Shown: piece by piece, positions 40,800-43,085 of the stretch | Position numbering within the stretch: position 1 is the first letter of the stretch | How the letters are laid out: every line of letters begins with the position of its first letter | Assembly (NCBI RefSeq): GCF_963675975.1 | Contig: NZ_OY780939.1 | Location: 3,038,001 to 3,102,000, forward strand | DNA length: 64,000 nucleotides | DNA from: Halarcobacter sp. | GTDB lineage: Bacteria; Campylobacterota; Campylobacteria; Campylobacterales; Arcobacteraceae | Direction of reading: 5' to 3' | The notes under the pieces: generated by a model | What the model was told of the DNA's origin: nothing | The model's input: the letters and a program-made list of their open reading frames with translations, nothing else | The model's database searches: none | Program-made: the position numbers and the translations under genes

Positions 40800-41759
40800 A
40801 TGGAAACTTGCAAATTTGGATTAAATGAACATAAACCTTATCTAGGTGACAGCCATGAACATCACCATCATCATGATGGAGAACATCATCAACATTCCCA
40901 CGAACATGGACACTCACATGATCATAGAACAGCAGATAAAAAAGTTTTAAAATGGGCATTATCAATTACATTAATTACTATGTTTGCAGAATTTTTTTAT
41001 GGTTTTTTATCAAATTCATTGGCTTTGATTTCAGATGCTATTCATATGTTTACCCACTCTTTTGCGTTAATTATTTCATTAGTAGCGATTGTAATTGCTA
41101 GCAAAAAAGCTCCCTTAGAAAAAACATTTGGATATTATAGAATAGAAGTAATAGCAGCATTTATAAATGGGATTACTATTATTTTATCTATATTTTGGAT
41201 TTTGTATGAGGCAATAGAGCGTTTTTTTAATCCTCAAACTATTGATATAAAAATGGCAATGATTGTTGCAACAATTGGACTTATAGTAAATATAATTACA
41301 GGTGTAATTTTAATGCAAGGGGATAAAGAGAATATAAATCTAAAATCTGCCTTTGTACATATGCTAAGTGATGCTTTATCTTCAGTTGCTATTATTATAG
41401 GTTATGTAGTTATTCATTTTACTTCATGGTATTTTATAGATGTTATTTTAGCAATATTAGTTGCTCTCGTAATTGGAAAATGGGCAAAAGATATTTTAAA
41501 AAATTCAATCCATACTTTAATGGAAGGCTCACCTGTTGATTTAAAAGAAGTAAAAGAGTTTATAGAAAAACATGAAAAAGTAATAGAATTACACGATATT
41601 CATATTTGGGAAATAACTCAAGATATGTATAATATGACAGCCCATGTTAAAATTGATAAAAGTTCTTTTGAAAACTATGAAAATATTTTACATGAAATAA
41701 ATCATGATTTAAAAGAGAAATTTAAAATAGTTCATACTACTTTTCAATTTGAATGGTAA
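40800..41759 (+). CDS. dmeF: DmeF-like cation diffusion facilitator (Co/Ni efflux)
   Basis: About 319 residues, six membrane helices and a cytoplasmic C-terminal domain. A His-rich N-terminal loop (HEHHHHHDGEHHQHSHEHGH) precedes helix 1. The metal site in helix 2 is HMFTH (HxxxH) rather than the HxxxD of zinc exporters, and in helix 5 HMLSD; HMxTH in helix 2 is a DmeF feature. The likely role is proton-coupled export of cobalt and nickel. An ATG four codons upstream (40788) overlaps dmeR; I prefer 40800, just after its stop. Zinc transport remains possible. Confidence 0.82.
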   Translation: METCKFGLNEHKPYLGDSHEHHHHHDGEHHQHSHEHGHSHDHRTADKKVLKWALSITLITMFAEFFYGFLSNSLALISDAIHMFTHSFALIISLVAIVIASKKAPLEKTFGYYRIEVIAAFINGITIILSIFWILYEAIERFFNPQTIDIKMAMIVATIGLIVNIITGVILMQGDKENINLKSAFVHMLSDALSSVAIIIGYVVIHFTSWYFIDVILAILVALVIGKWAKDILKNSIHTLMEGSPVDLKEVKEFIEKHEKVIELHDIHIWEITQDMYNMTAHVKIDKSSFENYENILHEINHDLKEKFKIVHTTFQFEW

Positions 41760-41760
41760 A

Positions 41761-41787
41761 TATAAAGAGAGAAGTTCTCTCTTTATA
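41761..41787. terminator. Bidirectional hairpin between dmeF and the NifX-like gene
   Basis: TATAAAGAGAG (41761-41771) and CTCTCTTTATA (41777-41787) form a perfect 11-bp stem with a five-base loop, directly after dmeF and between convergent genes. It lacks long T-runs. Confidence 0.6.
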
Positions 41788-41801
41788 AGAAAAATATTAT
41801 A

Positions 41802-42140
41802 TTATGCTACTTTTACCAATTTGTCTTGTACGAAATCACTAAAAATACTTAATATTATGTCATCTTTTTTTGTATTATAAACAGATACACCACACTTAGA
41901 TAACTCTTCAAGTGGTAACCTTTCTTCATCATGTGATACTAATACATCAAAGTGTTTTGATTTGCAATATTTACAAAAACCTTCTAAATCATCATAAAAA
42001 GGATTTTTTATAATATCAATACCATCGATATTTTGGCCTTTACAGTGTAATACTGTAAGATAATTTGCATGATAAAAACTATTTTCAACTTTTGAAATAT
42101 AGCTTAATTTTTCTTGTGTAGGAAATACAACTTTAGTCAT
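41802..42140 (-). CDS. NifX/MTH1175-like small protein (dinitrogenase Fe-Mo cofactor fold)
   Basis: 112 residues. The strand-helix pattern (VVFPTQEKLSYISKVENSFYHANYLTVLH, then FDVLVSHDEERLPLEELSKCGVSVYN) resembles the dinitrogenase iron-molybdenum cofactor-binding fold. Proteins of this fold often neighbour DUF134 regulators, as here. Cysteines are at CKYCKSKHF in the middle. No nitrogenase genes are in the window, so it is probably not about nitrogen fixation. Function unknown. Its AAGGAG ribosome binding site can be masked by an upstream CTCCTT (42165-42170), and a large structured region precedes it. Confidence 0.65.
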   Translation of the reverse strand: MTKVVFPTQEKLSYISKVENSFYHANYLTVLHCKGQNIDGIDIIKNPFYDDLEGFCKYCKSKHFDVLVSHDEERLPLEELSKCGVSVYNTKKDDIILSIFSDFVQDKLVKVA

Positions 42141-42145
42141 ATTCT

Positions 42146-42170
42146 CTCCTTGTAGGAATTAAAAAAGGAG
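42146..42170 (-). promoter_or_regulatory. Hairpin sequestering the ribosome binding site of the NifX-like gene
   Basis: On the minus strand CTCCTT (42170-42165) is exactly complementary to the AAGGAG ribosome binding site (42151-42146), with a 13-base loop. Formation would block translation of the gene starting at 42140. Confidence 0.5.
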
Positions 42171-42174
42171 TTTA

Positions 42175-42261
42175 AAACATCAGCTTATAGTCAGGATGAG
42201 TGAAAAAAAGTAATGACTAGGGAAAAGACAATTATTTGTTATCCTAACGCAACTGATGTTT
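42175..42261. ncRNA. Candidate structured RNA with internal pseudoknot
   Basis: AAACATCAG (42175-42183) and CTGATGTTT (42253-42261) make a 9-bp closing stem. Inside, TAGTC (42088+100 to 42192) pairs with GACTA (42215-42219), AGGAT (42193-42197) can pair with ATCCT (42241-42245) as a pseudoknot, and ACAA (42228-42231) with TTGT (42236-42239). The pairs hold for either strand; the minus strand, leading to the NifX-like gene with its masked ribosome binding site, is preferred. No known riboswitch class was recognised. Confidence 0.45.
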
Positions 42262-42301
42262 AAAAATATATTCCATTAAAGCTTATATTTATATACTATT
42301 T

Positions 42302-42361
42302 GTACAATAACGGGAACCAAAAAGGTTACCATGAGAGAAGATCACAAATTTTATATTGTAC
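42302..42361. other. Second hairpin in the NifX/DUF134 intergenic region
   Basis: GTACAATA (42302-42309) pairs with TATTGTAC (42354-42361). Inside it GGGAACC (42312-42318) pairs with GGTTACC (42324-42330) around an AAAAA loop, with one mismatch. It has no T-run, so it is not a terminator. Orientation unknown. Confidence 0.45.
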
Positions 42362-42397
42362 TAATGTATATTTAAAGTCAAACTAAATACTGCTTTG

Positions 42398-42440
42398 TGA
42401 ACATATGACAGAATTGTATCACTTTTTTGAACATATGTCA
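42398..42440 (+). repeat. Two 13-bp near-identical repeats, 30 bp apart, upstream of the DUF134 gene
   Basis: TGAACATATGACA (42398-42410) and TGAACATATGTCA (42428-42440) differ at one base and are spaced exactly 30 bp start to start, about three helical turns. They contain the palindrome CATATG. The position 55-100 bases before the DUF134 start suggests operator sites. Confidence 0.55.
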
Positions 42441-42494
42441 AGTATTATTCAATTAATCTATGGTAAAATTGAAATTATTAAATAAGGTATTTAT

Positions 42495-43085
42495 ATGGCA
42501 AGAGAAAAACTACAAAGAAAGTTAGAATTAAAGCCTGTATCAAAATATTTTGGCCCTAAAGATATAAAGGCAAAACAAGATGTAATACTATTACACGAAG
42601 AGTTAGAAGCAATCCATTTAATGGACTCTTTTTGTATGTATCAAGAGGATGCTGCAAAAAAAATGAATGTTTCTAGAGCTACATTTGCAAGAATCATAAA
42701 AAGTGCTAGAAAGAAGATATCTTTAGCGCTAATTACGGGAAGTAATATAAAAGTTCATGAGATTAAAAATGAATTTCATGTTGCTGTATGCTCAAATAGT
42801 AATACAGAACTTGAATATGCTGGGCCTGAAGCAAAATATGTATGGATATTTTTTATTAAAGATTATAAGCTAAAATCTGCAAATTGTATAGCAAACCCTG
42901 CATACAATAATGAAGATGATGCTCCATGTAATGTCTTACCTGACATTTTATATGATTTTACAGTAAACTACTTTTTAATAGAAGATATTGATTATGATTT
43001 AAAAATCTCTTTAATTGCAAAAGGGATATATCCTATTTTACAAGAAGAAGTAACCCAAGAGGGTCTTGTAGGAATCTTTCAATAG
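42495..43085 (+). CDS. DUF134 family helix-turn-helix protein
   Basis: 196 residues. The N-terminal DUF134 region (ARE...RKLELKPVSKYFGPKD, DVILLHEELEAIHLMDSFCMYQEDAAKKMNVSRATFARIIKSARKKI) is a sigma-like helix-turn-helix DNA-binding unit. The C-terminal half (100-196) is not part of the standard DUF134 and has no recognised domain. Members often neighbour Fe-Mo cofactor-binding-fold proteins, as the divergent gene at 41802 is. It is probably a regulator of that gene and of itself. AAGG lies seven bases before the ATG. Confidence 0.8.
   Translation: MAREKLQRKLELKPVSKYFGPKDIKAKQDVILLHEELEAIHLMDSFCMYQEDAAKKMNVSRATFARIIKSARKKISLALITGSNIKVHEIKNEFHVAVCSNSNTELEYAGPEAKYVWIFFIKDYKLKSANCIANPAYNNEDDAPCNVLPDILYDFTVNYFLIEDIDYDLKISLIAKGIYPILQEEVTQEGLVGIFQ

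Follow-up and report, generated by a model that had tools for sequence, protein, structure and literature searches.

The genome of Halarcobacter sp. studied here (3.27 Mb, single contig) contains a 354-bp gap between a gene for a NifX-like protein and a gene for a DUF134 protein. This gap houses a structured element at positions 42175-42261 of the window, that is, of the whole 64,000-nucleotide stretch of DNA that was analysed. The initial annotation had read the element as a pseudoknotted RNA acting in cis on the minus strand, possibly as a metal or cofactor sensor for the NifX-like gene, and we asked which kind of RNA it is and what it would act on. Comparison with related genomes makes it quite probable that the element represents domain B of a small RNA that acts in trans and controls the mRNAs of propionate and acetate enzymes by base pairing. 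The features next to the element are the following.

41802-42140, minus strand: gene for a NifX-fold protein, downstream of the RNA and missing at this locus in g3 and g18
42146-42170, minus strand: hairpin AAGGAG/CUCCUU that would mask the ribosome binding site of the NifX-like gene, clear in the window genome and the nearest relative only
42175-42261, minus strand: domain B of the proposed small RNA, the element under study, with closing stem P1 (42253-42261 with 42175-42183)
42190-42248, minus strand: helix P2 (42241-42248 with 42190-42197), nested in P1
42198-42232, minus strand: unpaired loop AUUGUCUUUUCCCUAGUCAUUACUUUUUUUCACUC, almost invariant, through which base pairing is proposed, with its core at 42217-42226
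42495-43085, plus strand: gene for a DUF134 helix-turn-helix regulator (PF02001, 9.6e-16), divergent from the RNA

A conserved two-helix RNA domain on the minus strand

An alignment of 16 genomes of the window genus (g1; 15 distinct rows) revealed a conserved nested two-helix RNA domain. P1, the 9-bp closing stem that had already been drawn in the initial annotation, is paired in 100% of the cells and supported by covariation, with double changes at 2 pairs and, in one genome, a compensatory double change from ACAUCAG/CUGAUGU to AUGUCAG/CUGACAU. P2 comprises 8 bp (GUUAGGAU/AUCCUGAC), has 96% of its cells paired and shows double changes at 4 of the 8 pairs, G-C being replaced by A-U among other changes at several pairs. 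Taken jointly, the two helices have 98% of their cells paired and both-side changes at 6 of 17 pairs, a value that none of 500 shuffles reached, and the same nested fold was recovered independently by RNAalifold. The strong covariation among these 16 genomes thus concerns P1 and P2, but not the pseudoknot. The AGGAT/ATCCT pairing, which had been taken to cross another stem, does form inside the covarying P2, but this helix is nested within P1; the proposed crossing helix, TAGTC/GACTA, shows no covariation, with 67% of its cells paired and 365 of 500 shuffles as high. Its TAGTC arm is part of the invariant loop and never changes, the GACTA arm varies between genomes, and 11 of 15 rows have lost the C-G pair. 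The ACAA/TTGT hairpin is not conserved as drawn either: 14 of 15 rows lack one of its four pairs.

The wobble pairs allowed us to assign the strand. The helices of domain B contain 21 G-U cells against 2 A-C cells when read on the minus strand, and a plus-strand RNA was rejected because the 21 G-U pairs would become A-C mismatches. In folding energy, the minus strand of 42175-42261 beats all but 1 of 200 shuffles (z -3.7) and the plus strand beats 200 of 200 (z -3.2). Conservation, covariation and the G-U signal together uphold the earlier view that a functional minus-strand RNA lies upstream of the NifX-like gene. The non-coding position of the element is likewise confirmed; the sole candidate for a small ORF beside domain B, ATGGAATATATT, was rejected, its ATG not being conserved in the 16-genome alignment. 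Across the 16 genus members, the DNA of the interval is 68-95% identical and the NifX-like protein mostly 44-59%, so the non-coding stretch is better kept than the gene behind it. The pyrimidine-rich loop of domain B, AUUGUCUUUUCCCUAGUCAUUAC-U(5-8)-CACUC, hardly varies among the 16 genomes.

A g1 covariance model of domain B found the element once in every g1 genome, each time at the DUF134 locus, and outside g1 a single marginal match elsewhere in genome G048 (E 0.046), because the other genera diverge in sequence. Rfam 15 gave no match above gathering scores in the window region or in the relatives, in line with the earlier statement that no known riboswitch class is recognisable, and a permissive search of the window region (E up to 10) returned only terminator-like and miRNA-type chance matches. 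At 41759-41816 of the window, a weak match to STnc290 (30 bits against a gathering score of 60) coincides with a simple AT-rich hairpin after a cation efflux gene and is read as a terminator. As for the flanking proteins, the NifX-like label proved right at the level of the fold: Foldseek matched the protein to NifX and, with TM scores of 0.7-0.8, to PH0822, TM1816 and MTH1175, which places it in the NifX/Nitro_FeMo-Co fold, while only a distant homologue matches Pfam PF02579, below the cutoff. As a possible NifX-like domain, the C-terminal half of the DUF134 protein gave only a weak profile comparison (probability 13%, E 0.002) and a structural model of too low quality for comparison (pLDDT 44).

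Promoter, operator-like palindromes and distribution of the proposed small RNA

On the minus strand ahead of domain B, twin TGAACATATG palindromes bracket a near-consensus promoter that is divergent from the DUF134 gene, an arrangement kept in 16 of 16 genomes of the genus. The additional features are listed below.

42302-42361, minus strand: domain A of the RNA, an 8-bp stem GUACAAUA/UAUUGUAC around a C/U-rich segment and an inner hairpin
42398-42409, plus strand: operator-like palindrome TGAACATATGAC, downstream of the -10 box
42413-42441, minus strand: predicted small RNA promoter, TTGACA, 17 nt, TACAAT, with TG ahead of the -10 box and 11 of 12 matches
42428-42439, plus strand: operator-like palindrome TGAACATATGTC, which overlaps the -35 box of this promoter
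42175-42406, minus strand: proposed small RNA of about 230 nt, its 5' end deduced from the promoter and its 3' end from the end of P1

The promoter element TTGACATATG is kept in all 16 genus members and also in other genera, in which the -10 boxes are similar, and the palindromes are conserved across genera as well. From the promoter we infer a transcription start near 42406. Domain A folds on the minus strand with a z of -2.6 against shuffles, and no clear terminator follows the RNA in the 16 genomes of g1. Exact matches to TGAACATATGNC number four in the own genome against none for the reversed control, and the palindromic operator sequence at the promoter, TGAACATATGTCA, is a candidate DUF134 site; that the DUF134 protein binds the palindromes we infer from its divergent position and their co-occurrence.

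The operator pair also occurs elsewhere. In the own genome and three close relatives, twin TGAACATATG operators lie at the promoter between a nifJ-type gene and porG (G000:C1, about 969743-969787), which makes the promoter of por (pyruvate:ferredoxin oxidoreductase) a likely second member of a DUF134 regulon. In a lineage of DUF134 paralogues, the same pair precedes a small DUF4492 gene followed by cydA (cytochrome bd oxidase) and overlaps the promoter; the cydA-linked paralogue is divergent from the DUF4492 gene in six genera (g2, g8, g12, g15, g19 and g20), and in the g2 genomes the DUF134 lineage stands at this cydA-linked locus, which differs from the RNA locus. These positions suggest that DUF134 controls cytochrome bd oxidase. 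The occurrence of one operator pair before both cydA and por suggests a redox/respiration regulon and points to the DUF134 protein as a regulator answering respiratory, redox or Fe-S state. In G014 and G002, one operator copy precedes two paired genes for small membrane proteins (163 aa; DUF6394).

The RNA was found in 5 of the 20 genera examined, always at the DUF134 locus, and the DUF134 gene stands at the locus in every genus having the RNA. Its layout (5' domain, domain B) is kept in the four other genera with a different sequence, and a strong A/T-rich terminator follows domain B in g3, g4, g15 and g18. In g4 and g15 this terminator sits ahead of the NifX-like gene. In g3 and g18 the operator-promoter-RNA unit is retained and closed by an intrinsic terminator, the NifX-like gene is missing, and the next gene read is aroC in most cases. 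The RNA is therefore separable from the gene and is most readily taken as a small RNA in its own right: in these two genera it is independent of a downstream gene, as a trans-acting small RNA should be, and lacks the constant cis coupling to a regulated gene that a riboswitch should have. A predicted loop of the g3 RNA contains a C-run of 10, 9 and 5 in three g3 sequences; such a variable run may mean phase variation or targeting of G-runs.

This distribution bears on the alternative that the element belongs to the 5' UTR of the NifX-like gene, as a riboswitch, a thermosensor or a leader bound by a protein, for which the CUCCUU/AAGGAG hairpin would be the expression platform. Such a cis-acting element would fit the position of the RNA directly before the NifX-like gene in 16 of 16 genomes, without a strong terminator, and the hairpin that covers the ribosome binding site in the window genome. 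The masking of that site (42146-42151 with 42165-42170), noted in the initial annotation, is indeed obvious in the window genome and the relative closest to it, but not in the others, and the hairpin is not conserved. Given also the terminator-closed unit of g3 and g18, the terminator preceding the gene in g15 and g4, and the match of the pyrimidine-rich invariant loop to other mRNAs, we consider a cis-acting element unlikely. The more specific proposal of a metal or cofactor sensor for the NifX-like gene finds no support, given the same absence of the gene from the terminator-ended RNA locus of g3 and g18, the failure of the crossing helix, and the complementarity of the invariant loop to prpC and ackA mRNAs. 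A link to redox or Fe-S status may instead run through the DUF134 regulator, not through ligand binding by the RNA. It is also possible that the RNA has a dual role, as a small RNA and as a cis element of the NifX-like gene.

Predicted pairing with prpC and ackA mRNAs

For the trans-acting small RNA, targets were looked for by sequence searches and in limited genome stretches. A first scan for TAGGGAAA before an ATG in three genomes, followed by inspection of 20 contexts, gave two metabolically sensible candidates, ferredoxin and prpC. The ferredoxin mRNA was rejected as a conserved target, with a site in only about 4-5 of 16 genomes. The leader of prpC, which encodes 2-methylcitrate synthase within the prpB-prpC-acnD operon, carries, 9-37 nt before the ATG, an exact complement of 12-13 nt to the RNA loop in 15 of 16 genomes; this site persists though the rest of the leader varies and prpC itself comes in two versions. 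For each leader, a match of this length was reached by 0-27 of 2000 shuffles. In the own genome, GAAAAAAAGTAAAAACTAGGGAAAA of the RNA matches GAAAAAAAGTAATGACTAGGGAAAA of the prpC leader at 23 of 25 positions, GAAAAAAAGTAA included, and the predicted duplex of -30.6 kcal/mol lies below all 5834 background windows taken from the 64-kb window. The other prpC leaders mostly fall within the lowest 0.1-2% of the 5834 windows by energy, and that of G008, in which the site is degraded, within 8%. Two versions of prpC, about 51% identical, occupy the same prpB-prpC-acnD position in different species of one genus, which by sequence is a gene replacement in situ.

To guard against a biased choice of candidates, every CTAGGGAAAA in the 16 genomes was then listed and the contexts were read; as the seed was a chosen one, the targets found are a lower bound. 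Outside the RNA gene there are 118 sites, against 41 for the reversed control, and two non-coding loci recur. One is the prpC leader, with an exact copy in 14 genomes and, in G004, a one-base variant plus a second matching block. The other is the 3' UTR of ackA, where CTAGGGAAAAG lies between the stop codon and the terminator in at least 7 genomes; this copy could be a sponge or an mRNA-stability site. The remaining sites examined are mostly within coding frames or confined to single genomes, those in coding frames often being in-frame Leu-Gly-Lys or Ala-Arg-Glu codons. No long near-perfect target (18-mer, at most 3 mismatches) was found at a conserved locus outside the RNA itself. Domain B thus exposes an accessible, conserved region complementary to distant mRNAs, as expected of a small RNA, and since its invariant loop matches the mRNAs of propionate and acetate enzymes, base-pairing control is probable rather than metal sensing.

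The prp operon of other genera was inspected in the same way. In the g3 genome G047, the operon leader lacks the g1 word, and ACUCCUUUGUUAUCUAUU of that genome's RNA, which has another sequence than the g1 RNA, is complementary over 13 nt to AATAGATAACAAA in the genome's own prpC leader, the pairing extending past a short bulge to the ribosome site AAGGAG. The RNA segment has three distinct 13-nt matches in about 600 kb of strand sequence, so that a hit in a 50-nt leader has a chance probability of about 2.5e-4, uncorrected for the small number of segments that were tried; the pairing ranks only 79th of 23,940 windows by energy. The pairing segment of g3 belongs to domain A, not domain B, and the poly-C loop was rejected as a partner of the g3 prpC leader, with which it is unmatched (rank 3768). 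In the g15 genome G079, the prpC leader has no seed, and domain B fits the 3' end of prpB, more weakly, at rank 3 of 31,920 windows and unsupported by conservation. The dcuA leader of G079, after aspA, ranks fourth of 31,920 windows against g15 domain B, again unsupported by conservation; both fits lie in or close to metabolic genes.

A further explanation is that CTAGGGAAAAG is a DNA-binding site or mRNA element of another factor, common to the RNA gene, the prpC leader and the ackA 3' UTR, and the recurrence of the word at few loci only is indeed operator-like. We regard this as rather improbable, because the word is antisense to the RNA at all target loci, forms the unpaired part of a covarying structure in the RNA and, in the ackA copies, sits past the stop codon and ahead of the terminator, where an operator would be unusual; moreover, the own-genome match spans 25 nt with 2 mismatches, including GAAAAAAAGTAA, and g3 has a different matching sequence pair. 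A 6S RNA or another housekeeping RNA, which would share the closing stem, the large internal loop and the single copy per genome, is very improbable: no 6S match was obtained from Rfam (E up to 10 for the window region, gathering scores for the relatives), and the 6S RNA of Campylobacter and Helicobacter sits before purD (PMC3847290), whereas the RNA described here occurs in 5 of 20 genera and always at the DUF134 locus. Hairpins are common in AT-rich intergenic DNA, but a remnant or chance structure without function hardly deserves consideration, given that 6 of 17 pairs show compensatory changes, a level reached by 0 of 500 shuffles, and that the loop has barely changed in 16 species beside a protein that is mostly 44-59% identical.

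Proposed circuit and comparison with known systems

As a trans-acting small RNA, the element would work as follows. The DUF134 protein would repress or activate the small RNA according to redox, Fe-S or respiratory state, and the RNA, once made, would pair with the prpC mRNA at its ribosome site or immediately ahead of it. Because of this position, pairing would most likely lower prpC translation, although positive control, as reported for Bns1, is possible. The propionyl-/acetyl-CoA node would thereby be coupled to redox, Fe-S or respiratory state. Pairing in the ackA 3' UTR may affect the ackA mRNA, or the ackA mRNA may titrate the small RNA, and the NifX-like gene would be transcribed by read-through from the small RNA. 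A wider picture, in which the RNA is the small-RNA arm of a DUF134 redox/Fe-S regulon of Campylobacterota, with pairing sequences swapped between genera while tracking prpBC, an ackA sponge and an independently evolved Neisseria counterpart directed at these enzymes too, is offered only tentatively and is in our view doubtful as a whole.

Within this phylum, experimental work on small RNAs has centred on Helicobacter and Campylobacter. The RNA would be a previously uncatalogued small RNA of marine Arcobacter relatives, and would give the marine Arcobacteraceae a small RNA family with conserved, testable targets. If the proposal is true, DUF134 regulators gain a first defined role in Arcobacter relatives, at cydA, por and the small RNA, and have a post-transcriptional connection to the propionate/acetate node. 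That g1 and g3 use different pairing sequences against one and the same target operon would be a natural experiment in target tracking. A full-text literature search found no published work on a DUF134/small RNA circuit, and in an earlier systematic survey of a single Arcobacter genome, intergenic candidates confined to the genus were left unnamed (PMC6429828).

Among known systems, RNAs of the RyhB/FnrS/FsrA type are made under a redox or iron regulator and repress metabolic mRNAs near the ribosome site; here, the regulator would be a DUF134 protein, and there is no relation of sequence. RepG of Helicobacter pylori is a trans-acting small RNA that pairs with mRNA leaders, its targets being tlpB and hp0102 (PMC8295292). 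The RNA described here belongs to the same phylum, is likewise predicted to pair with an mRNA leader and has a variable C-run (5-10) in g3, but it differs in targets and locus and shares no shown sequence relation with RepG.

The closest parallels lie in Neisseria. Bns1 of Neisseria meningitidis, described as a positive regulator, is divergent from an operon with a GntR protein reported as its repressor and is linked to prpB-prpC (PMC4423775). Our RNA is also divergent from a transcription factor gene and, by prediction, linked to prpB-prpC, but the regulator gene is DUF134 and not GntR. The two systems also differ in family, genes and organism, and no relation of sequence to Bns1 was found. 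The sibling RNAs NgncR_162/163 of Neisseria gonorrhoeae have prpC, prpB, ack and gltA among their validated targets (PMC9973317), and prpC and the acetate kinase gene are the predicted targets here. Unlike these two siblings of an Hfq-containing betaproteobacterium, the present RNA occurs once per genome, differs in sequence and structure, and has its ackA site in the 3' UTR. Nothing indicates common descent with the Neisseria RNAs, and the overlap in targets (prpC, ack) suggests that RNA control of the same pathway evolved independently.
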